Source of the DNA: Gammaproteobacteria bacterium
GTDB taxonomy: Bacteria > Pseudomonadota > Gammaproteobacteria > JAUZRS01
Length of the DNA stretch: 64,000 nucleotides
Assembly: GCA_030949385.1 (NCBI GenBank)
Contig: JAUZSP010000003.1
Span: forward strand, 124,001 to 188,000
Direction of reading: 5' to 3'
Part shown: piece after piece, positions 25,625 to 42,354 of the stretch
Numbering within the stretch: the first letter of the stretch is position 1
How the letters are laid out: each line of letters starts with the position of its first letter
Notes under the pieces: model-generated
The model's input: the letters and a program-made list of their open reading frames with translations, nothing else
What the model was told of the DNA's origin: nothing
The model's database searches: none
Program-made: the position numbers and the translations under genes

Positions 25625-26590
25625 ATGAAAAAATCCCGTTTGATCAGCCTGTTCTTCGCTCTGCTCATACCCGCAAGCGGTCAAGCCGCCACCTGTTTGT
25701 GGGTTTCATCCTACGCACCAAATTACGAGTGGAATGACGGCATCGGGCGTGCTCTCCACAGCGGCCTAGCGGGTCAATGCGACCTGCTGGAGTTTCATCT
25801 GGACACCAAACGCAATCGCTCCAGCGAATTTGCTCAAGCCCAAGCAAAAAAAGCACTGGCCTACATCCAACAAACAAAACCCGATCTGATCATCGCCTCT
25901 GACGACAACGCCTCCAAATACTTGGTCAAACCCTATCTCAAAGACGGCTCCATTCCGGTGGTTTTTTGTGGCATTAACTGGAGTGTTAAGGAGTATGGCT
26001 ACCCTTATAAAAACGCCACCGGCATGATCGAAGTGGCACCGGTACAGCCGCTGATCAACGAAGCCAAAAAGGTGTTACAAAACCCGAAAAAAGCGCTCTA
26101 TCTAACCTCAGATGTCAAATCCTCTCGCAAAGATTTCAAGCAGTTTGCCCGTCTGTTTTCTCTCGCTGGCATCCAATTAAAGGGCCGCTTTGCTGAAACG
26201 ATGCAAGAGTGGAAAAGAGGCTTTAAAGACGCCCAGAATTACGATTTTATTATTATCGGCAGCAACGGTGGCATTAACGACTGGCAGCGAGACAGCGTGC
26301 TCAGCTTCGTGCAACAGCAGAGCACAAAATTCAGTCTGGCCTTCCACAACTGGATGGCACCCTTTGCGATGGTAACCTTCAATAAAATTGCCGAAGAACA
26401 GGGGGAATGGGCTGCCACAGTGGCCATTGAAATTTTAAACGGGGCTGATCCACAGCAGATCCCCATCTCTCCCAATCGACGCTGGAAAATTTACGCCAAC
26501 CCACAACTGTTGGCGAAAAATGATTACCAACTCAGTCCGCGCACCCAGCGCAACGCCATCAACATTACACCGGAAACCCATGCCGACTAA
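25625..26590 (+). CDS. Periplasmic substrate-binding protein, ABC_sub_bind-like (copy 1)
   Basis: A 321-residue protein with a cleavable signal peptide (SLFFALLIPASGQAA) and the fold of ABC-type binding proteins of the PF04392 kind: [75 protein letters not shown]. No permease or ATPase gene is adjacent. Instead it overlaps a paralogue by 11 bp, and that overlaps a hybrid sensor kinase. I infer it presents a ligand to the kinase rather than to a transporter. Ligand unknown. Confidence 0.78.
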   Translation: MKKSRLISLFFALLIPASGQAATCLWVSSYAPNYEWNDGIGRALHSGLAGQCDLLEFHLDTKRNRSSEFAQAQAKKALAYIQQTKPDLIIASDDNASKYLVKPYLKDGSIPVVFCGINWSVKEYGYPYKNATGMIEVAPVQPLINEAKKVLQNPKKALYLTSDVKSSRKDFKQFARLFSLAGIQLKGRFAETMQEWKRGFKDAQNYDFIIIGSNGGINDWQRDSVLSFVQQQSTKFSLAFHNWMAPFAMVTFNKIAEEQGEWAATVAIEILNGADPQQIPISPNRRWKIYANPQLLAKNDYQLSPRTQRNAINITPETHAD

Positions 26591-27545
26591 ACCTTCACAG
26601 CGTCTTTTAATCATTTTACTGCTCGGCCTCAGCGCCTGGAGTAACAGCAGCCAAGCCGCCCGCTGTTTTTGGGTCTCTTCTTACGCGCCCGGTTATGAGT
26701 GGAACGACGGCATTGAAATGGGCATTCGTGACACCTTAGCAGGAAAATGTGAGCTGAAAATATTTTACATGGACACCAAACGCCACCCCTCAGCAGAGTT
26801 TGGTCGCCAACAAGCCCGCAAAGCGCACGCGCAAATTCGTGCTTACAAACCAGACGTCATTATTGCCTCCGATGATAACGCCTCACGTTATTTGATTCGC
26901 CCTTACTACCGCAATGTCAAAACACCGGTGGTGTTTTGTGGCCTCAATTGGAGCGTGAAGGAGTACGGCTACCCCTATAAAAACGCCACCGGCATGGTGG
27001 AGTTTTCTCCTATAGCACCTCTACTCAAAGAGGTGAATTACATTTTAGGCCGACCAAAAAAAGCGCTTTATCTCAGCTCCGATGTAAAAACAGAACGCAA
27101 AGAGTATCAACACTACAAGACATTTTTTGCGGCCAAAAAAATTCAACTGGATGGCCATTTTTCCCAAACTCTAAGCAGTTGGAAAAAGGGCTTTTTAAAC
27201 GCACAGCAGTATGATTTTGTTTTTATCGGTAATAACGGTGGCATCAATGATTGGGACAAAAAACAGGCAATGGAATTTGCCCAACAACAAAGCACAAAAC
27301 TCAGCATCACCAACAACCTCTGGATGTCGCCTTACAGTATGCTGGCCTTTGTAAAAATCCCCCAAGAACAAGGCGAATGGGCAGCCACCGTGGCTTTGGA
27401 GATCATCAGCGGCATCAAACCCAGTGAAATCCCCATATCCCCGAATCGAAAATGGAATATTTACCTTAATCCAGTCTTACTTAAAAAGGCCAAAATCAAT
27501 CTACGCCAAGAGACCTTGCATAAGGCGATTAAAGTAACTCACTGA
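26580..27545 (+). CDS. Periplasmic substrate-binding protein, ABC_sub_bind-like (copy 2)
   Basis: A 321-residue protein, the same length as copy 1 and homologous throughout: [68 protein letters not shown]. This is a tandem duplication that has diverged. The start at 26580 (MPTKPSQ) sits inside the end of copy 1; a longer frame from 26520 is rejected because it lacks a signal peptide at its N-terminus. It overlaps the kinase gene as TGATG. Confidence 0.78.
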
Positions 27546-29842
27546 TGAGACTCTCAGAAAAATTTCCACTGCCGCTTCAAATTGCCTGGTTACTCGGCAC
27601 CCTCATTACGGCCATCTTAATGAACCAAGCATGGCACTACATCAAACAACAAGAAACCCTACAGCTGCAACGTCAATCACAACTGATTGCCAATGAAATT
27701 GCCGCCAGCCTCGATACGCTCAGCAACGCCGTTGCCAACACCGTCACCCTGTTCAATACCACCGATTATGTCTACGCCGATGACTTTCGTCTGTTTGTTA
27801 AAAATATTACCCAGAAAAAATTCATTCGCACCTTTAGTTATTTACCTAAAGTCATTCAAAGTGAAAAATACGCCTTCGAATCCAAACAACAACACGATTT
27901 TGGCTACTTTGATTTTATGATTAAAAATTATCTCACCTCAACGCCCATAAACACCTCACCTTCACACTATTTTCCCCTGCTGTACATTGAACCTTATACG
28001 GTCAGAAACTCACGTCTATTGGGTAAAGATCTGCTCAGCCTAATCAACTTAAACAACAGCATTGACAACGCAATAAAAAGCAATCAAACCGTATTTACCC
28101 CCGCGATAAAACAGTTGGATGGCAAACACTACCCTCTGGTTTTAAAAGCCATTTATCGGGGACGTGATACTCCGCCAGATCAGAGCAGCCGTCAAACACG
28201 CATCAATGGTCTGATCGCAGCCAGCTTTGATCCGCAACATCTATTCAGTCACTCATTAGCAAAAAACATCGCCTTACAACTTTCCATTCACAATAACAGC
28301 AGCAGTAGCGATGAAATACGCCTGCTCTCCATCCCCTTTTCCATCCCACGCAACACTCATTTTATCCAGACCACTCTCGCTCTTAGAACCCATCTGCCCA
28401 GCTCTCAATACAACATCACTCTGCTGTTGAACAAACGGCTTATCTGGCGCGACATTAACAGTTGGCCCTTCTGGATCGCTCTTATCAGTGGTCTACTCGG
28501 CTGCCTACTGCTACACACTTTGGTTGCTTTCAGCTTAAAAAATCATCTCGAATTAAAGCGGCGCAATCAAGAGATCAAACAACAAGTCAATCAACAGACC
28601 CACAAACTGACACTGCTCTATCAACAGGCTCAACGCACTCAACAAGAATTACAACAGGCCAAAGAGGGAGCTGAAAAAGCCAACCGTTTAAAAAGCGAGT
28701 TTCTCGCTAATATGAGCCATGAAATCCGCACCCCTATGAACGGCATCTTAGGTATGACCGATTTGGCACTCGACACCCCGCTCAACAATCAACAAAAAGA
28801 GTATCTCGACACCGTCAAATCATCGGCTCAATCGCTGCTCTCACTGTTAAACAACATTCTGGATCTGTCCAAAATTGAAGCCGGTAAAATGAAACTGGAT
28901 CACAGTGTTTTTGCCCTGCGATACAGCATGACAGAGACCCTAAAACCGTTTATCCCTCTCAGCCAAAAGAAAACGTTACAGCTCACAATGCACATTGGCG
29001 AGCAGGTACCCGACACTCTGCGTGGTGACCCCACTCGTTTACGGCAAATCATCATTAACTTAATCAACAACGCGCTAAAATTTACCGCCCAAGGTGAAGT
29101 TCATCTCAGTATCGAATTAGCCTCAACAACAGATGATCAGCACTCAAACAACACAACCGTGCGCCTGCATTTTTGCATCCACGACAGTGGCATCGGCATT
29201 AGCGCAGCACAACAACACCTTATCTTCGGCTCTTTTTCACAAGCCGATGGCTCCACCACTCGACGTTATGGCGGCACCGGTCTCGGTCTGAGCATCTGTC
29301 GTAAATTACTCAAGTTGATGCAGGGTAAAATTTGGCTAAAGAGCCAATTGGGACAAGGTTCAGAGTTCCACTTCGAACTGAACTTTGAAACCGTCGATCA
29401 ACTGCCAATCAAAGAGTACAACACTCAAGAAATTCAAGTACCTAACGACCTTAAATTAAATATTTTATTGGCTGAAGATACGGACATTAATCAAAAAGTA
29501 GCCACTCGTATCCTGTGCAAACAGGGGCATAAAGTCACCATAGCCGAAAATGGCCAACAGGCCATTCAACTTTGGAAAAAGGGCGACTTTGATCTGATCT
29601 TAATGGACATGCAGATGCCGATTATCGATGGTCTGGAAGCCACCCAAAGCATTCGAGCAGCGGAACATGATCAGCACATCCCCATTTTAGCCATGACCGC
29701 CAACGCCATGCAGGGCGATGAAGAACGCTGCTTAGCAGCGGGCATGGACGGTTACATCAGCAAACCGGTCAGCGCTAAAAAGCTGCTGGATATGGTTAGC
29801 ATTTATTACTGTTACCAAGCGGAGCAAAAAAAACCACAATAG
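27545..29842 (+). CDS. CHASE-domain hybrid sensor histidine kinase / response regulator
   Basis: A 765-residue protein. TM1 is at about 12-28. A periplasmic CHASE-type sensor domain follows ([33 protein letters not shown]). TM2 is at about 310-332, then a coiled coil, HisKA with phospho-acceptor His392 ([12 protein letters not shown]), HATPase with N and G boxes ([27 protein letters not shown]), and a C-terminal receiver with Asp688 ([10 protein letters not shown]). No output domain or DNA-binding regulator is adjacent, so phosphate probably goes to an unlinked HPt or regulator. The overlap with the binding-protein genes suggests they supply its input. Confidence 0.92.
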
Positions 29843-29844
29843 GC

Positions 29845-30543
29845 TCACGGGGTTTCACTGGGCTTTTGCGCCAAAATATCATCAGAATCACTGACCAGAC
29901 GCAGATGCAGAGAACTGGACTTGTAACCGTAACCCTCACGACCGTTACTGAACAGAACCCCCCAAGCATAAACCTTATAATCCTGATAACTGTTTTTGCT
30001 CCAGTACCCTTCGGGCAGCGTATTGACAAAAAAGAACCCGTTCACCATCGGCTTAGACTGAGCCTTGTCTTTTTCAACCAGCGACTTTAATTCCGCTCGG
30101 CTTGGCACACGCCAATTAACTCGCCCGCAGATTTTGGAGCCATTCAAACTGTTTTGATACGCCAAAGTGTCGCACTCGCTCTGACTGCACTCACCGCCAT
30201 TTTTACGTCCTTGCTCACGTTCTTTACCCGCCACGTCAGGATCAAACCAACTGTAGGTGTTGTCTTTGTGCTGCAAACCCACCTCGGTACTCTTGGTTTC
30301 CCAAATCAAACCACTGCGCTGATCCAAGACACAGCTCCAAGACGCAGACTCTACCGGCAAGATGTCACCTTGCGGATCCAACTTACGATAATAGCGGCTG
30401 CCCGCCAGACCCTCTGAATCAATCAAGACCGTCTTATTCTGATTCTGATCCAGATCCTTACCTGCATCATCCTTATTACCACAGGCAGGCAACATCAGTA
30501 AGCCCACTACCAACACCACTCCTTTGCCAATCACACCACACAT
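29845..30543 (-). CDS. Lcl/DUF1566 C-terminal-domain lipoprotein
   Basis: A 232-residue protein with a lipobox (LVVGLLMLPACGN), so probably lipidated. The body shows the Lcl_C (DUF1566) pattern: VLDQRSGLIWETK, NTYSWFDPD, ICGRVNWRVPSRAELKSLV, GYWSKNSYQDYKVYAWGVLFSNG. These C-type-lectin-like domains occur in surface and sulfatase-associated proteins. The ATG at 30543 has CAGGAGG upstream; earlier in-frame ATGs would bury the signal peptide. Converges on the sensor kinase gene with a two-base gap. Confidence 0.8.
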   Translation of the reverse strand: MCGVIGKGVVLVVGLLMLPACGNKDDAGKDLDQNQNKTVLIDSEGLAGSRYYRKLDPQGDILPVESASWSCVLDQRSGLIWETKSTEVGLQHKDNTYSWFDPDVAGKEREQGRKNGGECSQSECDTLAYQNSLNGSKICGRVNWRVPSRAELKSLVEKDKAQSKPMVNGFFFVNTLPEGYWSKNSYQDYKVYAWGVLFSNGREGYGYKSSSLHLRLVSDSDDILAQKPSETP

Positions 30544-31100
30544 AGCAGCCTCCTGATGCTCCATTCCTTGCTTTCCTTTAGCAGACAATACGGATTGATA
30601 AACCCGCCAAAAATTTCTAATAGCCTGTCCGCCTTTCATATTAGAGCTAAAAAAGACGGCCTCACAGCCGTTGAACATAGCTCAAACATACACTTTAACC
30701 ACCTATTTTTTTATCAACGGGCAGAAAAAATTATTATCTCTACCTCGGCCTAAATCCATCCCAACTGACGAATGGCCAACAAACAGACACCACTGGCATG
30801 ATTCCCTAAAGCAAAGCATTCCAAAGGAACATACACTGAGCCAATCAATCTAATCGCGGCTGCTATTGAGCAACATCACCCCTGTTTTTGAGCGTATATA
30901 AGGTAAAGTTAGAGGGAATAAAGTGGCTAAAATTGCTCTATACTGTCAGAAAATTGTGATACTTAAAGCGCTATTCTCCCACCTGAATAGACAGATATTA
31001 CGGTTATTGGCATTAAGCGCTTCACGGAAGAGCGATCAGAGCAGCTCAGTCAACACCGTTCTTAAGACAGTAGACGACTATAAAAATGGAATGCGGAACT
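30544..31100. other. Intergenic region between divergent lipoprotein and transporter genes
   Basis: About 550 bases holding the promoters of two divergent genes. Small open frames exist (for example 30671-30853 and 30923-31132), but neither has a ribosome-binding site with a family-like product. No RNA gene, repeat or clear operator was recognised. Confidence 0.4.
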
Positions 31101-32381
31101 ATGACAGCAACATCTTCAGAGAGTGCAAGTAAACACGGTTCTCGGCAATGGGCCAACAACCTATTCATACGCGCTGTTTTTCTCTCGATTAACTTCTTTT
31201 TAATCATCACCGCCTATTACCAACTCAAGCCAGCCAGTCGCTCGCTGTTCATCGAATACTTGGGCGCAGAAAAACTACCCTACGTCTGGATCGCTACGGC
31301 GGTGATTCTCACTCTGATACTCAGCGTCTATCACTTGGTGGTTAAAAACTACAGTCGTTTTCACATCGTAATCGGCTCCTGCACTCTGTTTATCGTCATT
31401 TTGCTGCTGTTCCGTATCATGATGTCGGAACCCGATGCCATTTTGGCTGCCAGCCTGCACATCTTTGCCGATATTTTCAGCGTCGTTTTAGTCGAACAAT
31501 TTTGGAGTTTGGCCAACAGCCTCTACACCAGCAAAGAGGGCAAACGCTGGTATGGCATCGTAGGGGCAGGAGGCGTTGCAGGGGGCATGGTCGGCAGCGG
31601 CATCGCCAGTCTCACCATCAGCCACACACCACTGGAAACCCCAGACCTATTACTGGTCGCTGCGGGCATCATCTCGCTGCTGGTGTTGCTCACCATCGCC
31701 ATGCGTCGTTTAGGCCTCTACGGTGAACAAGACAGCTCTCACGACAAACAGAAGCCGCAAGGCAGCTGGCGCGTCTTGACCAACAGCCGCTACCTCACCT
31801 TGATTGCCATCGTCGCGCTGTTGGGGCAACTGGCTGCCACCATCGTCGATTACCAGTTTATGAACAGCGTGCAAGATGCCTTCCAGGAACGAGATCCACG
31901 CACCGTCTTCATAGCCAACTTCTTCTTTATTCTCAGCGCCATTTCACTGCTGATCAATTTGGTTATCAGCCCACTGATTTATCACTACCTGGGGGTCGTA
32001 GCGGGCCTGCTTGCCCAACCACTGATGCTGTTCACCACCTCGGCACTGTTTATGTCCAACGGTGGCTTGATGTTCGGTGCGGCGATGAAACTCAGTGATC
32101 GCGCTCTGGCCTACTCCATCTCGCGCACCTCGAAAGAGCTGCTTTATGTGCCTCTCAGCCCCGTCTTGATCTATCAGGCCAAGGCCTGGATCGACATGCT
32201 GGGGTATCGAGTATTTAAAGTTTTGGGGTCAGTGCTGATTTTAGCGCTGACCGATTGGGGCTTTTTAAGCCTCTCCGTGCCCGAGTTAAGCTGGTTAACC
32301 CTCAGCATCTGCCTTGCTTGGCTGGTGGGAGCCGCACTGCTGCACATCGGCTATCGCTGGCGAGCAGCGTCTGAATTATAA
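31101..32381 (+). CDS. ATP/ADP-translocase (NTT/TLC) family nucleotide transporter-like protein
   Basis: A 426-residue membrane protein with about 11-12 helices. Family-like segments are YYQLKPASRSLFIEYLG with KLPYVWIATAV, FWSLANSLYTSKEGKRWYGIVGAGGVAGG, and SISRTSKELLYVPLSPVLIYQAKAWIDML, as in NTT nucleotide carriers. Characterised members exchange ATP for ADP or import nucleotides in obligate intracellular bacteria and plastids; divergent ones in other bacteria are uncharacterised. The ATG at 31101 has GGA just upstream; 31086 is an alternative. The next gene, an exported ATP-using enzyme, starts 56 bp later, so a role in moving nucleotide across the inner membrane is inferred. Confidence 0.75.
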   Translation: MTATSSESASKHGSRQWANNLFIRAVFLSINFFLIITAYYQLKPASRSLFIEYLGAEKLPYVWIATAVILTLILSVYHLVVKNYSRFHIVIGSCTLFIVILLLFRIMMSEPDAILAASLHIFADIFSVVLVEQFWSLANSLYTSKEGKRWYGIVGAGGVAGGMVGSGIASLTISHTPLETPDLLLVAAGIISLLVLLTIAMRRLGLYGEQDSSHDKQKPQGSWRVLTNSRYLTLIAIVALLGQLAATIVDYQFMNSVQDAFQERDPRTVFIANFFFILSAISLLINLVISPLIYHYLGVVAGLLAQPLMLFTTSALFMSNGGLMFGAAMKLSDRALAYSISRTSKELLYVPLSPVLIYQAKAWIDMLGYRVFKVLGSVLILALTDWGFLSLSVPELSWLTLSICLAWLVGAALLHIGYRWRAASEL

Positions 32382-32437
32382 TATTTTTTTAGCCGACAAC
32401 GGCTCAAACCCTACACATATGAAATGATGGAGTCTCA

Positions 32438-35374
32438 ATGATACGTCAACGCCTACTGCTCTTTGGCATTGCCCTCTGCGCAAGCTACGCCCCTTTGGCT
32501 ACTGCGGCACCCAGCAACTCGGAAATCGACGCCAGACACGTCGCTCGCAGTTGGATTCAAGAGATGAAAAAAGCCCGCAAAGGGCCCTTTCGTCGCATCC
32601 GCTGGTACTGCAACGACGGCACCATTCTGCCCCCCAAACCCTTTGCTTGTCGCAAACACGGTGGCGGAGTTCAACACGGAGAATGGAACAAACGCACCCT
32701 CGCCTTGCGGGGCGAAGGTTATTACATTGCCAACGTCTTAGCCGATCTGGATGTGGAAAAATTTCCTGAGCGCAAAGATGCCTTACCGCTGCTCAAGTCC
32801 ATTTTGGTCGAACAGTTTCTGCGTGAAGCCGATGACGGCTGGATCTTCCGTCGTGCGCGTTTCTACCGTGGCGCTCTGCAAGCCGAAGATGAATCAGGAC
32901 GCAGTCTTGAGCTGCTGAATACATTATTAGGCATCCCCATCTGGCGCCACGAACGTTTTATCCTGTTGCGCGAAGCGGTACGTCTGCTGCCTTACATGGG
33001 GCAATCCCCTCTGATCACTCAGGTTCGTCAAATGTCCTCCAATTTGGCCGCCGAAGATCGGGGTTTCACCCTATTAAGAAATAAAATTCATGCTAAACCC
33101 GACAGTGGCGACGCCACTCGAGTGCGCAACTACCAACAACAAAAAGCCCCAAAAGACCTGCATGAAGATTACAACGATCTGGTTGCGGTACTGGACGAAC
33201 TCTATCAACCGGGCGGTTTTACCACCCAGCTGGACAATTTGGCCAAAATGGTCAAAGACAGTGCAGTAAAGGCTGCTCTGAAAGCCTCAGCCAAACAACT
33301 GGAAGGGGTGAATGACCCCATTGAACAGCTTAAACTGGGTGGCTGGCTAATGCTCATGATCCGCGAAACCATGGATTTGATGGGCAGCACCAAGGCGATG
33401 TACAACTCCTTGCAAACCAGCCGTGTGCTGGAGCAAAAAGTCTATGTCGCAGGTAACGTACTGTTGGAGAATTTATCCAAAAGCAACCGCAGCCAACGTC
33501 TCAAATGGATGGATCATTCACTGGCCGCACTCTACGGTTCAGGTATGCTCTCTAAGCGGCAGTGGGCAGCCGCACGCGCCAGCTTGTCACGCTTACAAAA
33601 GAAAAACCTGCCGCTTGATGTTTACAAAAAAGAGCTGGATTACTTACAAAATGTGCCTGCTTGGGTTGCTCAAGGGCTTGGTTTTCACTTTAACGACGTC
33701 GTTTCACACCTCGCCGACATCGAACCTCTGGCCTACCACTACACCCAAGATCGGATGCGCGGCAGTCCCCTGCTGTTTTTCGCAGAAGTACTCGATACTT
33801 TGGTCAAAGACCTCAATCAACTGGCCGGTCTAAAACACACCTTCTTCGGTAAAACTTTAGGTGTTGGTTTGCAACGCCTCAATCCGGGTCTGGCTCGTGG
33901 CACCTTGCGCATCAAAGCCCATGAGAATATGAGTAAATTCCAACGGGACAGCATCTACCTTCTGCCCGTCACCACGCCAGATCTGCCTCCGGTAGCGGGC
34001 GTACTGACCCAAGGCGCGGGCAACTCTCTGTCTCATGTTCAGTTGCTGGCGCGTAATTTAGGCATCCCTAATATCGTTGTCGATGACTATCTAATCCGTG
34101 AACTGGAGAAAGAAGACGGCAAAAAAGTGGTCTTAGCTGCCAGCGCCGGTGGCGTGGTCAACTTGGTCGAAGATGGTCCAGAATGGGACAAAATCTTTGG
34201 CGGCGAAGACGTTACCGAAGATGTGGTCATTCGCCCTGATCTGGAAAAATTGGATCTGGAGAAAAAAGAGCTGATTCTGCTCAGTGAATTGCGCGCCACC
34301 GATGCCGGTCGCACCGTCGGCCCCAAAGCCGCTAACTTAGGCGAACTGAAACACTTCTTCCCCGAAACCGTCACCGAAGGTCTGGTGATTCCTTTTGGTA
34401 TTTTCCGAGATCTATTAGATCAACCCACTCGAGAGGGTGGTAACACGGTCTTCCAGACGTTGCAGTTCCAATACAACCTCATCAACGCCACCAGCAACGA
34501 TGTGGATGTACGCCTAACACAGAGCCGAGACCTGCTTACGTGGTTGCGCAACTGGATCAAAACTTCCGATCCAGGCCAGCAGTTCCGCGACAAACTCAAA
34601 ATAGGAATGGAACAGGCCTTTGGCAAAGAGGGCAGCTACGGTGTTTTTGTCCGCAGTGATACCAATGTGGAAGATCTACCTGGTTTTACCGGTGCCGGTC
34701 TTAACTTAACCGTGCCCAACGTGGTCGGTTTTGACAACATCTACGATGCCATTTTACGGGTCTGGGCATCCCCATTCACCGAACGCGCCTACTCTTGGCG
34801 GCAGGCGTACATGACGGAACCAGAACACGTTTATCCCTCCATTTTGCTGCTGCGCAGCGTGGATGCAGACAAATCTGGCGTCATGGTCACGCAGGACTTG
34901 GACACCGGTGATCGCAACACCCTCTCAGTCTCCATCAACGAAGGCGTGGGTGGCGCTGTGGATGGCCAAGGCTCTGAACAGCTGCGTATCAATACCAAAA
35001 CAGCCGATGTGACCCTCATCGCTCAAGCCAGTGAACCCATGCGGCGTAAAATATCGGCTACTGGCGGCGTCATTAAGGTTCCTGCCAGCGGCACCTCTGA
35101 AGTATTGAAAGAGCTCGAAGTAGAACAGTTAATCGCCTTATCCAAAGACGTTGAAAAACGCTTCACCAAAATCCGAGATGCCGATGGCAACCCCACCGCA
35201 GCGGACATCGAATTTGGCTTTTTGGATGGTAAATTGGTACTGTTCCAAATCCGTCCTTTTGTACAGAGCAAAAAAGCCAAGTTCAGCAAGTACCTCAACG
35301 AGCTGGATAAATCCTTGGCCGATCTATCCTCCATTACCGTCAATCTCAACGAAATTCCAAGGAACGCTCAATGA
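32438..35374 (+). CDS. Exported dikinase-like protein: phosphohistidine domain followed by PPDK-type ATP-grasp domain
   Basis: A 978-residue protein with a Sec signal peptide (LLLFGIALCASYAPLATAA). Residues ~25-500 are mainly helical and unrecognised, with Cys58 and Cys71 near KHGGGVQHGEW. Then comes a swivelling phosphohistidine domain with His533 (NSLSHVQLLARNLGIPNIVV), and a C-terminal PPDK/PEP-synthase-type ATP-grasp domain, ~615-950 (VGPKAANLGELK, VRSDTNVEDLPGFTGAGLN, VWASPFTERAY, ADIEFGF, FQIRPF). The His-then-ATP order and the LSHV-x-x-x-ARN and GAGL motifs match alpha-glucan, water dikinases; PPDK has the opposite order and a PEP barrel, absent here. It probably phosphorylates an unknown envelope substrate using ATP. 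The downstream hydrolase gene overlaps by four bases. Confidence 0.82.
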   Translation: MIRQRLLLFGIALCASYAPLATAAPSNSEIDARHVARSWIQEMKKARKGPFRRIRWYCNDGTILPPKPFACRKHGGGVQHGEWNKRTLALRGEGYYIANVLADLDVEKFPERKDALPLLKSILVEQFLREADDGWIFRRARFYRGALQAEDESGRSLELLNTLLGIPIWRHERFILLREAVRLLPYMGQSPLITQVRQMSSNLAAEDRGFTLLRNKIHAKPDSGDATRVRNYQQQKAPKDLHEDYNDLVAVLDELYQPGGFTTQLDNLAKMVKDSAVKAALKASAKQLEGVNDPIEQLKLGGWLMLMIRETMDLMGSTKAMYNSLQTSRVLEQKVYVAGNVLLENLSKSNRSQRLKWMDHSLAALYGSGMLSKRQWAAARASLSRLQKKNLPLDVYKKELDYLQNVPAWVAQGLGFHFNDVVSHLADIEPLAYHYTQDRMRGSPLLFFAEVLDTLVKDLNQLAGLKHTFFGKTLGVGLQRLNPGLARGTLRIKAHENMSKFQRDSIYLLPVTTPDLPPVAGVLTQGAGNSLSHVQLLARNLGIPNIVVDDYLIRELEKEDGKKVVLAASAGGVVNLVEDGPEWDKIFGGEDVTEDVVIRPDLEKLDLEKKELILLSELRATDAGRTVGPKAANLGELKHFFPETVTEGLVIPFGIFRDLLDQPTREGGNTVFQTLQFQYNLINATSNDVDVRLTQSRDLLTWLRNWIKTSDPGQQFRDKLKIGMEQAFGKEGSYGVFVRSDTNVEDLPGFTGAGLNLTVPNVVGFDNIYDAILRVWASPFTERAYSWRQAYMTEPEHVYPSILLLRSVDADKSGVMVTQDLDTGDRNTLSVSINEGVGGAVDGQGSEQLRINTKTADVTLIAQASEPMRRKISATGGVIKVPASGTSEVLKELEVEQLIALSKDVEKRFTKIRDADGNPTAADIEFGFLDGKLVLFQIRPFVQSKKAKFSKYLNELDKSLADLSSITVNLNEIPRNAQ

Positions 35375-36678
35375 ACACATTGAAACGTTTAAGTTACGCA
35401 CTGCCCCTGCTGGCACTGTCACAAACCAGTTGGAGCTACCCCTTTGATCAAGCCGCATCCGACTACAGCCAGATTCAACGGCTGGAAGCCTCACGTTTAG
35501 GTCAAGAGAAGAAGATCCCAGCTGGCATCTTGCCCAGTGGCGCTTTTCTTGGTCTTGAGGAGATAAAAAGCCGCCTGCTGGAAAAACAAGAGTTACAGAT
35601 CCCATCTGCGGATAAAGCGTTCAGCAAAGCGATTGAAAAATTTCTCGGCAAAGAAGCCGAAGACTACGGCGTTGCGGTACTGGATCTGAGCGACATTGAC
35701 AACCCACTCTACGCTGAACATCAAGCCAGCAAACTGTTTAACCCAGGTAGTGTGGGTAAGTTGTCCGTTGCCATTGCCCTCTTTCAGGCACTAAAAGACA
35801 CCTACCCAGATGACGTAAAAGCACGCGAGAAAATCTTACGCGATACACAAATCATCGCCGATCGCTTTATTATCCACGATCACCACAAAGTCCCCATCTG
35901 GAACAGTGAAAGCCAAAAACGCCGCTGGCGCGCCCTCAAAATTGGCGACACCACCAATTTGTGGGGATATCTGGATTGGATGCTCTCTGCCAGCTCCAAT
36001 GCGGCGGCCAGCATGGTGCTCAAGCAGGCGATGTTGATCAAACACTACGGCACTCAATACCCTGTCTCTGTTGCTGAAGAGAAACGTTTTTTCAAAGAAA
36101 CACCAGTGAAAGAGCGCATGGCACTGCTGGAGACGGTACTGCATGAATCCATTAGCCGCAGTGGTTTAAAATTAAAAGCCTTTCGACAGGGTGGCTTCTT
36201 TACCCGTCACGGCAAAGCCCGTGTGCCAGGCACATCAAGCCAAGCCAGCCCACGAGAGATGGTTAAATTTCTGCTGTTTCTAGAGCAAGGAAAAATCGTC
36301 GATGCTTTCTCCAGCCAAGAGATCAAACGCCTGCTCTACATTACCCGTAAGCGCATCCGTTACGCCTCTCACCCAGCCCTGAAAAAATCTGCGGTCTATT
36401 TCAAATCCGGTTCGTATTACAAATGCATCCCTGAAGAAGGTTTTAAGTGCGGCAAATACATGGGCAACAAACTCAACTGGATGAACTCTGTGATTACGGT
36501 TGAATCTCCCGGCAACGCCAAGAAAAAACGCCCTCCGACTCACTACATGGTCACCGTGATGTCCAATGTGAAACGCAAAAACTCAGCGGTGGCGCACCAA
36601 ACCTTGGCGATGAGAATTCATCGTCTGATTGAAAGCTACCATCAGGACAAACTGGCAGAATTTAAACAGAGTGAGTAG
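35371..36678 (+). CDS. Exported serine hydrolase of the beta-lactamase/PBP-like fold
   Basis: A 435-residue protein with a signal peptide (SYALPLLALSQTSWS). The three active-site motifs of the penicillin-recognising fold are present: S127-V-G-K130 (NPGSVGKL), S208-S-N210 (SASSNAA) and K345-S-G347 (YFKSGSY). The long insertions and basic C-terminus are unlike clinical class A beta-lactamases, so a peptidoglycan or other envelope substrate is likelier than antibiotic resistance. Its ATG overlaps the dikinase stop (ATGA), which strongly suggests joint function. A terminator follows. Confidence 0.82.
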   Translation: MNTLKRLSYALPLLALSQTSWSYPFDQAASDYSQIQRLEASRLGQEKKIPAGILPSGAFLGLEEIKSRLLEKQELQIPSADKAFSKAIEKFLGKEAEDYGVAVLDLSDIDNPLYAEHQASKLFNPGSVGKLSVAIALFQALKDTYPDDVKAREKILRDTQIIADRFIIHDHHKVPIWNSESQKRRWRALKIGDTTNLWGYLDWMLSASSNAAASMVLKQAMLIKHYGTQYPVSVAEEKRFFKETPVKERMALLETVLHESISRSGLKLKAFRQGGFFTRHGKARVPGTSSQASPREMVKFLLFLEQGKIVDAFSSQEIKRLLYITRKRIRYASHPALKKSAVYFKSGSYYKCIPEEGFKCGKYMGNKLNWMNSVITVESPGNAKKKRPPTHYMVTVMSNVKRKNSAVAHQTLAMRIHRLIESYHQDKLAEFKQSE

Positions 36679-36710
36679 CTCAACTCACCTTCCCCTCAAA
36701 CCGTAAGCCA

Positions 36711-36740
36711 AAAAAAGCCTCAATCAATGAGGCTTTTTTC
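36711..36740 (+). terminator. Terminator of the transporter-dikinase-hydrolase operon
   Basis: AAAAAAGCCTC pairs with GAGGCTTTTTT across an AATCAAT loop, 32 bases after the hydrolase stop. Confidence 0.9.
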
Positions 36741-36761
36741 ATGTCTACCTACCTAGTCTTA

Positions 36762-36880
36762 GTTCCCATGCTCCTGCGTGGGAACTCATACAATGGTGAG
36801 AATAACCTGCGGTATGGATTTCCACGGAAGACTGTAGGTACCAGAGCAAGGGCGGAAAATTTTTCGCCCCTACCGTTCTT
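36762..36880. repeat. Palindromic intergenic repeat, REP/MITE-like
   Basis: GTTCCCATG-CTCCTG-CGTGGGAAC (36762-36785) is an inverted repeat with one mismatch. About 60 bp on is a second, imperfect palindrome around AAATTTTTCGCCCC (36846-36873). Similar GTTCCCA-hairpin elements occur as dispersed repeats in gammaproteobacterial genomes. No transposase is linked. No other copy was noticed in the window. Confidence 0.5.
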
Positions 36881-36911
36881 GTTCCGTGCGTAACATCAGC
36901 TATTAAGTGTT

Positions 36912-37796
36912 CTACTTTTCCAACGCCGCCATTGCGGGTACAACCTTACGAGCAAAGATAATATCATCCAGACCGACAATCAACTTAGTCAACCAACGAC
37001 CACCACGACTGTCTGCCGCCAACGCCACCGCAATGTAAGTACGGCCATCGCGTTCGACAATGGCACTGTCTGCATGCCACTTACGCCATGAACCGGATTT
37101 GCGGAAAATCTTAGAACCAGGGCGCGCCCTCAAGCCTTTGACAAACTTATGATTAATGGCTGGATTACCCATAATGCCTTTCATCAAATGGCTGTAACTG
37201 GGTGAAACCAAACGCCCCGTTTCCATCAAATAGAGGTAACGCGCCACCTGAATTGCTGTCGCACCGTGAGAGAGGTTGTGCAACGGATCTCGCCGCCATG
37301 AGCCCCGTTTGCTGTACTCTTTACCGACCCACAAACCGCCATTGTATTTACGGTCATAAAGCCGATAACGAGGCGATTGCAGCAATTTGGCCAGATAACG
37401 TTTGCCTGCTTTGTTCAACATCGCCGTAGCCGACGAGTTGGAGGAGTTACGAATCATCCTGTTTAGTTGGTTAAGGGTTTTTTTATCCAGCTTAATCTCA
37501 CCGTCCGCTGCGCGCTGGCAAACACCTAATAAAATCGCAATTTTGGGCAAACTGGCGGCATACAACATGGCATTACCATTCACCGAAGCCATGTGAGGAT
37601 CACTGGGATCCGTAACATCAACCAACGCCACCGCCAAGGTTTTTTTCTTAATCGCCGAACGCATTCCCAACTTGGCAATGGTTTTTTCCAACTGCGCCTG
37701 CAATTCAGGATCGTGAGATTCACGCAAAGGCGGATAGATCTCCGCTGCTGCCAAAGACGAGCAGAGCAGCAGCACCACAACTAAAAAATATCTCAT
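36912..37796 (-). CDS. Second exported serine hydrolase, beta-lactamase/PBP-like
   Basis: A 294-residue protein with a signal peptide (RYFLVVVLLLCSSLAAAE). The motifs S82-L-P-K85 (YAASLPKI), S118-S-N120 (RNSSNSS) and K233-S-G235 (FRKSGSW) mark a penicillin-recognising serine hydrolase of compact class A size. It is convergent with the dikinase-linked hydrolase and related only at fold level. The ATG at 37796 has GGTGG five bases upstream; ATG 37808 is also possible. It lacks the usual E-x-x-L-N segment of true class A beta-lactamases as far as I can see, so hydrolysis of penicillins is uncertain. Confidence 0.8.
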   Translation of the reverse strand: MRYFLVVVLLLCSSLAAAEIYPPLRESHDPELQAQLEKTIAKLGMRSAIKKKTLAVALVDVTDPSDPHMASVNGNAMLYAASLPKIAILLGVCQRAADGEIKLDKKTLNQLNRMIRNSSNSSATAMLNKAGKRYLAKLLQSPRYRLYDRKYNGGLWVGKEYSKRGSWRRDPLHNLSHGATAIQVARYLYLMETGRLVSPSYSHLMKGIMGNPAINHKFVKGLRARPGSKIFRKSGSWRKWHADSAIVERDGRTYIAVALAADSRGGRWLTKLIVGLDDIIFARKVVPAMAALEK

Positions 37797-38170
37797 ATTT
37801 ACCACCATGAACCCCCGTTTTTCCATAAACTTCGGCTACCTATTTGCAGCATTTTTGCATAACAGAAAACCAAAACTTATCGTTCTATCTTCTCTGTTTA
37901 CATTTTCTACTAACAAATCCATAAACTGCCCTTTCCCTATCAGAGCACCCAATCATACAAAGCAAATGGCCAATTTTCTCTGAAAATAGCCGCACATTAG
38001 CGACACTTAAGCCATTATCCCCAATTTCAATACAGAACAACGAGCCAAACTATAACATAAAAAATGGACACTATTTAAGCAACTCTATGGCAGTTCTGAC
38101 CATTCAGGCAAAAAAAAGGCCCCACCGGTAAAACCGGTGAAGCCTTTTTAACCTACTTGAAACAATGAAC
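37797..38170. other. Intergenic region between two minus-strand genes
   Basis: About 370 bases holding the serine-hydrolase promoter side and, at 38109-38149, the terminator of the SLC13 permease gene. Nothing else was recognised. Confidence 0.4.
38109..38149 (-). terminator. Terminator after the SLC13 permease gene
   Basis: AAAAAGGC-CCACCGGT pairs with ACCGGTG-AGCCTTTTT around a short A loop. On the minus strand it ends in a T run, about 20 bases after the permease stop. Confidence 0.85.
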
Positions 38171-40165
38171 TTAGAAGATCAAGTTCAACATCGTCAAGGA
38201 GACCACCAAGAAGAGAATGGTCATAATTCCACCAGCACGAATAAAATCAGGCACACGATAACCACCTGGCCCCATAATCAACGCATTCACTTGGTGAGTT
38301 GGAATCAAAAACGAGTTAGAAGTCGCAATCGCCACCGTCAAGGCAAACACCGCCGGATCAGCACCCGCACCAATGGCGATATTAACCGCCAAGGGCACCA
38401 GCAGCACGGTCGCACCCACGTTGGACATCACCAAAGTAAAGAACGTCGCCAGTACAGCCACCGCTGCCTGAATGACCCAAATGGGCATATCACCCACCAC
38501 CAATAAGGTCTGCTCGGCAATCCACTTAGCTGTACCGGTGCTTTCCACCGCCAAACCGAGTGGAATCAGTGATGCCAACAAAAAGACCGTCTTCCAACTC
38601 ACCGCCTCGTACGCCTCTTCAATGGTCAATACTTTGGAGAGAATCATACCCACCGCGCCAGTCAACAAAGCAACCGAGAGACGAATGTCGGTGAACAGCA
38701 CCATAAAGAGTGCAATACCAAAGAAAAGGCTCGCCCAACCGACTTTGTTAGGTCGCATCTCTTCACGCGGATATTCGGTGGTCACCACCACAAAATTGCG
38801 ATCGCTCTCCAGACGCATCAACGCATCCCACGTAGTGTGGCAAATCAAGGTATCTCCAGCTTGAAAAGGCATGTCACGAATATGATCACCCTCTCGTTTG
38901 GTTTCACCGTTACGATGCAAAGCAATCATGGCCAAACCGTAGACTTTACGCATCCAAACGTCACGCGCACTTTTGCCAATCAGGTTGGAACCCGGGCGAA
39001 TCAAGACTTCGGCAATACCCGCTTTACTGGAGGACAACGACTCAGAAAAGGTACGCAGCTCATCACGCTGCTTGAGTTGATGTTCAGCAACAAAATTATT
39101 CAGGTCTTTCGGTGCGGCAATCACCCCCAAAACCATGCCTTCTATAATGGCCGTGTCGCGAGCAATGCTGCCAGGTCCAACGTGACTCTCTTCACCCAGA
39201 TATTTACTGCCGATAATGCGAACTCGATAATCGCTCTCCACATCATCCAACTGCTTGCCGATCAAAGAGCTCTCTTTCGGTACTACCAACTCAAACAGCT
39301 TGAAGTCCACATCATAAAGATCATGGAAATAACCCATTGCATCAGAACCCACAGCGCCCTCTGGCTTGCTTTTACTGCTGGGCAAAACAAAACGACCGGC
39401 AATGACAAAATAGAGAATACCCGTGGCCAACAGCGCGATGCCAATCGGCGTAACGGAAAACAGTGACCAGGTCTCCATCTGCTGGGTTTCTGGCAACGCG
39501 GTATTCGAAGTTAAAATCAGATCATTCAATAGAATCAATGGGCTGGAACCCACCATTGTCACGGTACCGCCCAAAATGGCACAAAACCCCATCGGCATTA
39601 ACAGACGTGACATGGGCAGACCTGAACGCGCTGAAATACGCGATACCACCGGCAAAAACAGCGCCGCCGCACCGACGTTCTGCATAAAGGAAGAGATCAC
39701 CCCCACGGTACTGGAGATAATAGGAATGATCCGGCTTTCCGTAGTACCGCCCACCTTCAAGATAAACGTCGCCACCTTGCTCATCATGCCTGTTTTATCC
39801 AGACCGGCACCGATGATCATCACTGCAATAATCGAAATCACCGCATTGGAGCTAAAACCATCAAACAGATGGCTGCTGTCCACCAAGCCCTGCTGCAACC
39901 CCATTGCTGGGGCCAACAGCGAGGTTAAACCCAACAGTACCATTACCGTTATGGCCGCCACATCAACCCCGACCACCTCAAAAGCAAAGAGGAAAATAGT
40001 CAGCAACAAAAACCCCGTCACCCAAGCAACTTCAATGGTGGGCACCAGCGTTGATAAATAAAGCCCCACGATCAAAAAGAGAGCACCCGCAATCCATTGC
40101 TTACGCGATCCCCCTCCCGTACTGCTCTCGCTCACCTGTTCGTTCGTTTTTGTATCCACACCCAT
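38171..40165 (-). CDS. SLC13/DASS-family permease with two internal RCK_C (TrkA-C) domains
   Basis: A 664-residue transporter. The N-terminal half has several helices with SSFMQNVGAAALFLPVV and GGTVTMVGSSPLILLND, the SNT-type substrate motifs of the divalent anion:sodium symporter group. Residues ~285-455 form two cytosolic RCK_C domains (KLFELVVPKESSLIGKQLDD, AGIAEVLIRPGSNLIGKSARD). The C-terminal half repeats the helices with MSNVGATVLLVPLAVNIA. Such proteins often move sulfate or dicarboxylates; the substrate cannot be fixed from sequence. Monocistronic. Confidence 0.88.
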   Translation of the reverse strand: MGVDTKTNEQVSESSTGGGSRKQWIAGALFLIVGLYLSTLVPTIEVAWVTGFLLLTIFLFAFEVVGVDVAAITVMVLLGLTSLLAPAMGLQQGLVDSSHLFDGFSSNAVISIIAVMIIGAGLDKTGMMSKVATFILKVGGTTESRIIPIISSTVGVISSFMQNVGAAALFLPVVSRISARSGLPMSRLLMPMGFCAILGGTVTMVGSSPLILLNDLILTSNTALPETQQMETWSLFSVTPIGIALLATGILYFVIAGRFVLPSSKSKPEGAVGSDAMGYFHDLYDVDFKLFELVVPKESSLIGKQLDDVESDYRVRIIGSKYLGEESHVGPGSIARDTAIIEGMVLGVIAAPKDLNNFVAEHQLKQRDELRTFSESLSSSKAGIAEVLIRPGSNLIGKSARDVWMRKVYGLAMIALHRNGETKREGDHIRDMPFQAGDTLICHTTWDALMRLESDRNFVVVTTEYPREEMRPNKVGWASLFFGIALFMVLFTDIRLSVALLTGAVGMILSKVLTIEEAYEAVSWKTVFLLASLIPLGLAVESTGTAKWIAEQTLLVVGDMPIWVIQAAVAVLATFFTLVMSNVGATVLLVPLAVNIAIGAGADPAVFALTVAIATSNSFLIPTHQVNALIMGPGGYRVPDFIRAGGIMTILFLVVSLTMLNLIF

Positions 40166-40390
40166 CCCCTCAGAAAATCTAATGATTTTTCACGCATAAT
40201 TTGAAAAGCGACGTTTCTACCACATCAAATCCCAACAGGCCACCTCTTTCGCTACTCCAAAACCATACTTATTAAAATGGTGATCCATAGAGCAGCAAAA
40301 AAAAAAACACTCTTAAATTCCCATGCCTAAAAGGTAACTCATGAGGTATTATGGTCGTCCATTTACAGTTGTTAAGGATGTGAACGTTTC

Positions 40391-40828
40391 ATGGCTGCAA
40401 CGGTTTTCGTGACCCCACAAGAGGCTGAACTGGCCTTTTACCAAGCGATTGAAGATGCTGATTTGGATGCCATGATGGAAGTCTGGTCAGATGAAAAGAG
40501 CATTGTCTGCATCCATCCTGGCATTCCACGCATGGTGGGTAGAGAAGAGGTGAGTGAAAGCTGGCGACAATTGTTCGAATCAGAAGTCGGACTGCGCTTT
40601 AGCCTCGAAGAGATTCATTACACCCAAGACTCGCTTCTCTCCATTCATCAAGTACGCGAACACATTGAAGTGGACGGCAACTTCACCGGCGTAATGCTTT
40701 CCACCAACATCTATCAACGCATCAACGGCAGTTGGAAAATGGTACTGCACCACGCCTCACCTGAACCGGATCTAGACGATGATGACATCATCGAAACCGA
40801 ATCTGAGCCTCCACCCATTCTGCACTAA
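40391..40828 (+). CDS. NTF2/SnoaL-like fold protein
   Basis: A 145-residue cytoplasmic protein with the cone-shaped NTF2-like pattern: AELAFYQAIEDADLDAMMEVW, CIHPGIPRMVGREEVSESWRQL, and INGSWKMVLHHASP near the end. The acidic tail (DLDDDDIIETESEP) is unusual. Related proteins are annotated as DUF4440/SnoaL-like and have no common reaction. AAGGATG precedes the start. Its own terminator follows. Confidence 0.8.
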   Translation: MAATVFVTPQEAELAFYQAIEDADLDAMMEVWSDEKSIVCIHPGIPRMVGREEVSESWRQLFESEVGLRFSLEEIHYTQDSLLSIHQVREHIEVDGNFTGVMLSTNIYQRINGSWKMVLHHASPEPDLDDDDIIETESEPPPILH

Positions 40829-40916
40829 CACACCCATCGTGGAGAAAGCAGGCACTCTTTTTGCTTATTCAATAACGTAGACAGATTTCATACTCTCCAC
40901 TTTGCTGTTAAAGCAA

Positions 40917-40950
40917 GCCCGTCGAACCCCCTTTGACGGGCTCTTTTTTT
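40917..40950 (+). terminator. Terminator between the NTF2-like gene and convergent moaE
   Basis: GCCCGTC (40917-40923) pairs with GACGGGC (40935-40941), followed by TCTTTTTTT. Confidence 0.88.
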
Positions 40951-40966
40951 GCCCAACCCCTTTTAC

Positions 40967-41407
40967 TCAATACCCGTCGCTGTTTTTATCGATCCAGCGT
41001 TCATTCTCCGACAGCAAAACCTCCTTTTTCCAAAAGGGCGCACGGGTTTTCAGCTCCTCCATCAAAAACCGACAGGCTTCAAAGGCCTCTTTACGATGAC
41101 TCGACCAGACACAAACCAATACAATCGGCTCTCCCACTTGGATCTCTCCGACTCGATGTTCAATCACGCCATCCAGCAACGTCCATTTTTCCATCGATTC
41201 CGTCAATATCTTGGCTAGTTCACGCTCCGTCATGCCAGGGTAATGCTCAAGCGTCATACTATTGACGACATCGCCTTGATTAAAATCACGCATGGTTCCC
41301 ACAAACGAAGCCGTTGCTCCATAAGCCCCCGTTTTAAGGTGTTCTTTTTGATGCTGTTGCAAATTCAACCACGGATCAAAAGCACCTTGGTGTAAAATAA
41401 TTGACAC
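40967..41407 (-). CDS. moaE: Molybdopterin synthase catalytic subunit MoaE
   Basis: A 146-residue enzyme that with MoaD converts cyclic pyranopterin monophosphate to molybdopterin. GAYGATASFVGTMRDFNQG, LEHYPGMTERELAKI, HRVGEIQVGEPIVLVCVWSSHRKEAFEACRFLMEELKTRAPFWKKE are the family blocks, including the MoaD-tail-binding Lys residues. It starts one base after the moaD stop. Confidence 0.95.
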   Translation of the reverse strand: MSIILHQGAFDPWLNLQQHQKEHLKTGAYGATASFVGTMRDFNQGDVVNSMTLEHYPGMTERELAKILTESMEKWTLLDGVIEHRVGEIQVGEPIVLVCVWSSHRKEAFEACRFLMEELKTRAPFWKKEVLLSENERWIDKNSDGY

Positions 41408-41408
41408 A

Positions 41409-41639
41409 TCAACCTCCCGTCACCGGTGGGAAAAAAGCCACCTCATCACCGTCGTTCACAATTTGGTCAAAATCGACGTACTCCATATTTAACGCCGTCA
41501 GGATGTTGTTTGCCAAAGGCCGATCCGTCACCTGCTGCCAAACGTCTTTGACCGTCATCTCTGCGTGATGCGCCAAAGTTCGCTCAGAGAGACCGATTGT
41601 TTCACTCAAACTGGCAAAAAATTTAACCGTAATCGACAT
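41409..41639 (-). CDS. moaD: Molybdopterin synthase sulfur-carrier subunit MoaD
   Basis: A 76-residue ubiquitin-like sulfur carrier ending PPVTGG, the Gly-Gly tail that is thiocarboxylated. VKFFASLSETIGL and NDGDEVAFFPPV are typical. The start at 41639 (MSITVKFF) has GGAGG upstream; an earlier ATG at 41654 overlaps that site. Paired with moaE; other moa genes are not in this window. Confidence 0.94.
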   Translation of the reverse strand: MSITVKFFASLSETIGLSERTLAHHAEMTVKDVWQQVTDRPLANNILTALNMEYVDFDQIVNDGDEVAFFPPVTGG

Positions 41640-41742
41640 AAACGCTGCCTCCAAATCTAAAATTAGTCATCTGAACAGACTTCATTCAAGCGGTAAATAG
41701 GCTAGAATAGCGCCCCAATTTGCTCGACGGTACAACAGTTCT

Positions 41743-42354
41743 ATGGACAACAACACCTTTTGGCTTCTGCTGCTGCCCGTTGGCGGCTACCTGCTCGGCT
41801 CGCTCTCGGCAGCCATTATCACCTGCCGCTTACTGGGCCTGCCCGACCCACGTACCATCGGCTCCAATAATCCCGGTGCCACCAATGTGCTGCGCACCGG
41901 TAATAAAAAAGCCGCCGCTTTAACCCTCTTTGGTGACATGCTCAAGGGGCTTTTGGCCGTCCTGATCGCCCGCCTGTTAACCACTGATGAGACTGTTTTA
42001 GCCCTCACCGCACTGGCGGCCTTTTTAGGCCACCTCTACCCGATCTTCTTCGGTTTCAAAGGCGGCAAAGGAGTGGCCACCGCCTTGGGCGTTTTTCTCG
42101 GTCTCTCTTGGCTCTGTGGCCTGCTCACCATCATCACTTGGTTGAGCATGACCTTTCTGTTTCGCACCTCTTCCCTCTCAGCTCTAACCGCCTTTGCCTT
42201 AGCGCCGGTGTACATGGCCATAAGCAGCGACAACGCCGCTTTTCTCATCATCAGCCTAATCATCTCCAGCCTGTTGTTCTGGCGACATCGCAGCAACATC
42301 CGCAAGCTGCTCAATGGCGATGGGGATCGCTTAGAGAATAAAGAGTCTAAGTAA
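41743..42354 (+). CDS. plsY: Acyl-phosphate:glycerol-3-phosphate acyltransferase PlsY
   Basis: A 203-residue five-helix membrane enzyme making lysophosphatidate from acyl phosphate. The three conserved loops are visible: [31 protein letters not shown] and [13 protein letters not shown]. It converges on tsaD, the two ends overlapping by eight bases. plsY beside tsaD and rpsU is a common gammaproteobacterial order. Confidence 0.96.

Follow-up and report, generated by a model that had tools for sequence, protein, structure and literature searches.

We report a conserved set of four genes encoding a membrane carrier of the nucleotide-translocase (NTT/TLC) family, hereafter TLC, a predicted exported dikinase-like protein (DIK) and two predicted exported serine acyl-enzymes (BLA and BLA2). 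The set is present in many free-living marine and sediment bacteria and is conserved across at least two classes. Its composition suggests an envelope modification that is paid for with exported ATP. More specifically we propose, with a confidence falling slightly short of even, that the four proteins constitute an envelope system in which the exported DIK performs ATP-fed phosphotransfer in the periplasm onto a component of the envelope, with TLC as the nucleotide carrier. We know of no kind of system in which an ATP-type carrier and an exported dikinase come together with a linked pair of serine enzymes; each of the families by itself is known. The initial annotation of this DNA had likewise known of no described system of this make-up, and searches of open-licence papers in PubMed Central for the trio of TLC, DIK and BLA, for exported dikinases and for NTTs combined with dikinases retrieved nothing relevant, which counts as weak evidence.

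In the window, i.e. the entire analysed stretch of 64,000 nucleotides, the gene for TLC occupies positions 31101..32381 (+), as assigned by Pfam (PF03219), profile matches to solved NTTs and alignment A3. Its reading frame is also open from an ATG at 31086; the internal ATG at 31101, which has GCGGA a few bases 5' to it, is the better start. After a gap of 56 bp follows DIK (32438..35374, +; 978 aa), delineated by ORF calls, Pfam and homologue alignment, which overlaps by 4 bp (ATGA) with BLA (35371..36678, +), a Beta-lactamase2/PBP-like protein identified by Pfam, motifs and homologue alignment. An intrinsic terminator (36711..36739, +; dG -14.7 kcal/mol, z -5.8) separates BLA from the convergent BLA2 (36912..37826, -), which was recognized through Pfam, motifs and linkage. 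This three-gene layout with its gap, overlap and terminator had been described beforehand, and every detail that was checked by ORF calls, Pfam and folding proved correct; BLA2, the fourth conserved member, had been overlooked. All four genes evolve under purifying selection, with dN/dS values of 0.04-0.08 (0.04 for DIK) relative to the 93-99% identical locus L002, which comes from a gammaproteobacterial MAG labelled AMOR20 (JAUZRS01) and encodes a DIK 94% identical to that of the window. Divergence from L002 across positions 27333-42114 is mosaic (dS 0.07 for TLC and 0.5-0.8 for DIK, BLA and BLA2), which suggests recombination between these lineages. Upstream of TLC lies a gene for an Lcl_C domain protein (PF07603; 29845-30678, -), which is syntenic in L002 and outside the conserved set. 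Positions 25625-29842 encode two tandem, overlapping and mutually similar periplasmic ABC_sub_bind proteins (PF04392) and then a hybrid histidine kinase with a CHASE domain, and look like a two-receptor sensory operon.

Each family was searched for with one protein query in a common sample of 369 Gammaproteobacteria genomes, and DIK was scored as present wherever a full or partial homologue was recovered at E <= 1e-30. DIK homologues were found in 35 of the 369 genomes and BLA in exactly these 35. BLA2 is present in 33, all of them DIK carriers (it is missing from G010 and G153), and BLA and BLA2 form a linked pair that occurs in the sample only together with DIK. The TLC orthologue is encoded by 28 of the 35 carriers and by one outsider, G016, at a mere 27% identity; each of the seven carriers devoid of it (G153, G212, G232, G263, G298, G331 and G342) has a diverged NTT-family protein, which is encoded inside the same locus in five of them. 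Fisher tests of co-occurrence, uncorrected for kinship, yield p values from 2e-34 to 8e-50, and the positive genomes span more than 20 families. Outside Gammaproteobacteria the search covered other Pseudomonadota, and there all 10 genomes listed for one genus contain DIK; the listing comprised all genomes with matches and part of those without, so that a few DIK-less members are possible. These genomes measure 2.3-3.0 Mb and the genus is probably Mariprofundus (Zetaproteobacteria); hence the carriers probably include free-living iron oxidisers. DIK and BLA also occur in two more distant carriers, G448 and G426, in the latter of which no TLC/NTT-family gene was detected. Genome G174 additionally encodes a second DIK paralogue of about 30% identity (L079:4713-8945) near a weak BLA2-like match, and this locus may represent a sister system that acts on a different acceptor.

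Examination of the ORFs in 36 loci revealed that only the DIK, BLA, BLA2 and TLC/NTT families recur widely, with one further family appearing in four loci. In at least 37 of 47 DIK loci the gene directly after DIK, in the same orientation, is BLA, and 41 of the retrieved stretches contain BLA at some position; BLA2 is present in 33 of the 47, usually on the opposite strand, and an NTT-family gene in 27, with several of the loci that lack a BLA, BLA2 or NTT neighbour ending at a contig edge. The commonest order is DIK, BLA, BLA2 (reverse), TLC, from which the window differs in that TLC precedes DIK; in L025, L059 and L075 TLC is situated between BLA and BLA2. Retention of these genes together while their order reshuffles argues for a functional link, and the co-occurrence in distant genomes combined with the conserved linkage means that they are not chance neighbours. 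The earlier reading had been staked in advance on the trio being conserved as neighbours, and this claim survived, DIK and BLA sharing an identical set of genomes that TLC and BLA2 track. Second copies of BLA2 were observed in probable Mariprofundus loci (L092:14938-15879, and also L091, L094 and L096).

DIK contains a phosphohistidine domain (residues ~510-569; 33965..34144, +) and, C-terminal to it, an ATP-grasp (PPDK_N) domain (residues ~626-950; 34313..35287, +), the latter recovered by Pfam at E=2.5e-31. The PEP-utiliser/phosphohistidine domain (PF00391) is detected more weakly (E=2.6e-4), and is matched by 23/23 aligned homologues at E <= 1. In alignment A1, which comprises 23 DIK sequences with members other than that of the window 35-49% identical to it, the phosphoryl-carrier candidate His533 and the ATP-grasp residues K630, R739, D923, E925, Q937 and R939 are all invariant, and profile alignment places His533 opposite the phosphohistidine region of PEP synthase. 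His533 and the ATP-grasp domain, both named in the initial annotation, are thus borne out. The closest solved relative of the ATP-grasp domain is PEP synthase (8a8e, E 1.8e-32), with which DIK shares the K, R, D, E, Q and R residues as well as the phosphohistidine. Unlike PEP synthase and PPDK, in which the order is ATP-grasp, phosphohistidine and PEP domain, DIK has these first two domains reversed, is predicted to be exported, and, like all 23 homologues, has no PEP/pyruvate-binding domain detectable by Pfam, so that PEP cannot serve as its substrate in the ordinary manner. The plant glucan and phosphoglucan water dikinases (GWD/PWD) also have a phosphohistidine followed by a C-terminal ATP-grasp domain, a large N-terminal acceptor region and no PEP/pyruvate domain. 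DIK resembles GWD/PWD in all these respects, whereas it differs from the plant enzymes in being bacterial and predicted to be exported, in having an N-terminus unlike any Pfam family, and in its grouping with an NTT and serine acyl-enzymes. None of the 23 homologues contains a Pfam carbohydrate-binding domain, the GWD phosphohistidine model PF22973 scores 14.8 bits against DIK, below its cut-off of 27, and 6 of the 23 weakly touch the Pfam GWD1 phosphohistidine model (best E 0.022).

The first ~480 residues of DIK yielded no credible match to any Pfam family. Their most conserved motif, RGPFxRIRWFCxDGxVLPPxPYACxxHGGGxQHGEW (residues ~49-83; 32582..32686, +), emerged from the alignment and includes the invariant C58 and C71. 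AlphaFold models built from two near-identical sequences are of low confidence (pLDDT 31 for DIK and 34 for BLA2), and that of DIK only suggests that helices may prevail in this region.

The ATP-grasp domain of DIK is also matched by the NCBIfam models for the prodigiosin ligase PigC and the undecylprodigiosin ligase RedH (E about 1e-17 to 1e-19), which indicates that the fold serves condensations as well. It is conceivable, if unlikely, that DIK spends periplasmic ATP on activating a group for bond formation in the manner of these ligases, with BLA and BLA2 as partner acyl-transferases or hydrolases, and the presence of two serine acyl-enzymes in the set would suit such acyl-transfer chemistry. 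However, the PigC/RedH matches cover the shared ATP-grasp domain only, and are weaker than that to PEP synthase (1e-31).

Export of DIK, BLA and BLA2, which the phosphotransfer reading presupposes for DIK, is indicated by conserved export-type N-termini. DIK has a predicted Sec-type signal peptide of about residues 1-24 (...LATAA-PSN; 32438..32509, +), in agreement with what had been noticed from the DNA alone. As a measure of export we took a 12-residue segment near the N-terminus with a mean hydrophobicity >= 1.9, a simple criterion to which internal segments are sometimes similar; such a segment is present in 21/23 DIK, 18/21 BLA and 13/13 BLA2 homologues. The BLA of the window is one of the three BLA sequences under the threshold (1.22), though it begins with the plausible signal sequence MNTLKRLSYALPLLALSQTSWS-YPF. 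Some DIK homologues (L023, L054) seem to be anchored in the membrane instead of being cleaved. The invariant cysteines C58/C71 of DIK and C352/C360 of BLA fit an oxidising compartment, as would be expected of exported proteins.

Both BLA (E=1.3e-6) and BLA2 match the Pfam Beta-lactamase2 family. BLA bears the motifs S127xxK130 (SVGK), SSN (208-210) and KSG (345-347), the triad already attributed to it in the initial annotation, along with the above invariant cysteines, and BLA2 the equivalent S92xxK95, SSN (128-130) and KSG (243-245). All three motifs are invariant across 21 BLA and 13 BLA2 sequences, the sole exception being an Ala at the variable central position of SxN in BLA, and in these motifs the pair resembles PBP-A and class A beta-lactamase-like enzymes. 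In class A beta-lactamases the deacylating residue is Glu166 of the omega loop. In contrast to these enzymes, the alignment of 21 BLA sequences has no conserved acid in the equivalent stretch, which would favour a PBP-like peptidase or acyl-transferase over a lactamase, and BLA and BLA2 form a pair linked to DIK. In BLA2, E/D170 aligns near the Glu166 position, and its profile touches TLL2115 (E 0.005), which we take to be the DD-peptidase PBP-A.

TLC is a multi-pass membrane protein that matches PF03219 at E=1.2e-18 (67.7 bits, cut-off 21), and its profile matches the solved NTTs 9j3n and 9j3j at 1e-23 and 1e-16 over most of its length; in both respects it is like the known NTTs. Characterised NTTs serve intracellular parasites (Chlamydia, Rickettsia) or plastids, and TLC differs from them in that its gene travels with a predicted exported ATP-using enzyme. 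Four charged residues are reportedly essential in Arabidopsis NTT1; of their presumed equivalents in TLC, E/D255 and K366 are kept, E151 is variable and a lysine is replaced by Ser51. As this pattern is only partially preserved the substrate of TLC may differ, with a nucleotide of some kind being likely.

TLC is also the loosest member of the set, as it lies outside the locus in several genomes, is replaced elsewhere by a diverged NTT and went undetected in G426. The linked carrier of both G212 and G342 is a long, diverged NTT, fused to HEAT repeats in G342, and it thus seems that what has been retained is a carrier function and not one particular lineage. Diverged long NTTs were found beside an ordinary TLC at L060:14930-17389, L063:15694-17838 and L067:568-2757, and alone at L056:1245-3500 and L065:3-2018. 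HEAT repeats are detectable in those of L067 and L056, which resemble the NTT-HEAT class of Major et al., who in 2017 also described NTTs in free-living bacteria, including Gammaproteobacteria, as being without a known role (PMC5381601). The idea that NTTs are exclusive to DIK carriers had to be abandoned: the Pfam model matched 0/50 negative genomes, but a more sensitive NTT profile matched 14/70 DIK-negative genomes, 5 of them strongly. The cassette-type TLC itself is nearly exclusive to DIK carriers. Strong NTT-family proteins of Gammaproteobacteria without DIK are encoded at L108 (G020), L109 (G016) and L110 (G056).

The direction and substrate of transport by TLC allow two further explanations. 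The NTTs characterised in intracellular bacteria take up nucleotides (reviewed in PMC5381601), and the NAD-carrying NTT4 of Protochlamydia illustrates that NTT substrates vary. TLC might accordingly be an importer in a set that salvages external nucleotides or phosphorylated envelope fragments, with DIK acting on extracellular ATP or a salvaged compound. We regard this as improbable, since external ATP should be scarce for carriers that probably include free-living iron oxidisers (Mariprofundus), and an exported enzyme that consumes ATP and keeps its active site invariant must be able to rely on its ATP supply. We are equally doubtful that TLC moves a non-adenylate, for example in muropeptide uptake, as part of some other step, while DIK obtains its ATP from leakage or lysis. 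The loose linkage of TLC and its incomplete NTT charge pattern are in keeping with such a role; however, the presence of an NTT-family substitute in 7/7 gammaproteobacterial genomes without the orthologue, 5 of them with it in the locus, points to a nucleotide-type substrate. That DIK and TLC have come to lie beside unrelated envelope genes by chance, or that DIK is a degenerate pseudo-enzyme, is contradicted by the co-occurrence, the invariant catalytic residues and the dN/dS of 0.04, and, nothing having been found in its favour, can be dismissed.

We accordingly return to ATP-fed phosphotransfer in the envelope, for which the following scheme can be proposed. TLC, in the inner membrane, would exchange cytoplasmic ATP for spent adenylate. 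DIK, exported by the Sec pathway, would bind this ATP in its C-terminal ATP-grasp domain. PEP synthase and the glucan water dikinases phosphorylate themselves on a histidine and release AMP and phosphate; from its invariant residues and domain order, DIK would do the same on His533. The phosphoryl group would then pass from His533 to an acceptor held by the ~480-residue N-terminal domain, and BLA and BLA2, in the same compartment, may cut back or rejoin the peptide portion of this acceptor. That the two act on such a peptide part, most plausibly of peptidoglycan or a fragment thereof, is speculative and, on its own, unlikely; peptidoglycan is what we would guess first, as the polymer on which PBP-like enzymes act and one that every carrier of the set should have. 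A point that counts against the scheme is that the product of a dikinase for TLC to take back would be AMP, not ADP.

The original reading of the locus as an envelope phosphotransfer system is therefore upheld in part: the gene set, its co-occurrence, the export-type N-terminus and the intact active site speak for it, whereas an osmoregulated periplasmic glucan is unlikely as the acceptor, MdoG being present in just 6/27 carriers and absent from this genome. We also considered several other contexts for the set. A defence system was rejected, as none of the four proteins is matched by the PADLOC models of known anti-phage defence systems. Among 72,556 plasmids no match reached 80% coverage of the query, the hits being confined to the shared ATP-grasp domain, and IMG/VR viral contigs gave none, so that mobile-element cargo was rejected as well. 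A link to autotrophy was likewise set aside, RuBisCO being only slightly commoner in carriers than in set-less genomes.

In its most general form, the proposal is that free-living bacteria run a periplasmic ATP economy, in which an NTT exports ATP and takes back adenylate, a water-dikinase-type DIK phosphorylates an envelope polymer and two serine acyl-enzymes process it; we advance this tentatively, as a real possibility that is nonetheless below even. Such a supply of ATP to the periplasm would resemble the eukaryotic secretory pathway, where ATP/ADP exchange feeds kinases. To our knowledge the bacterial periplasm is taught as ATP-free, and a set that couples an ATP carrier to an exported ATP-dependent enzyme would, if real, overturn this view for many environmental bacteria. 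It would also provide a role for at least some of the unexplained NTTs of free-living bacteria (Major et al., PMC5381601), explain the retention of NTTs by some non-parasitic bacteria, and mean that the bacterial envelope is chemically modified in a further, new way. The system is directly testable, and cultured carriers probably exist in the form of Mariprofundus.
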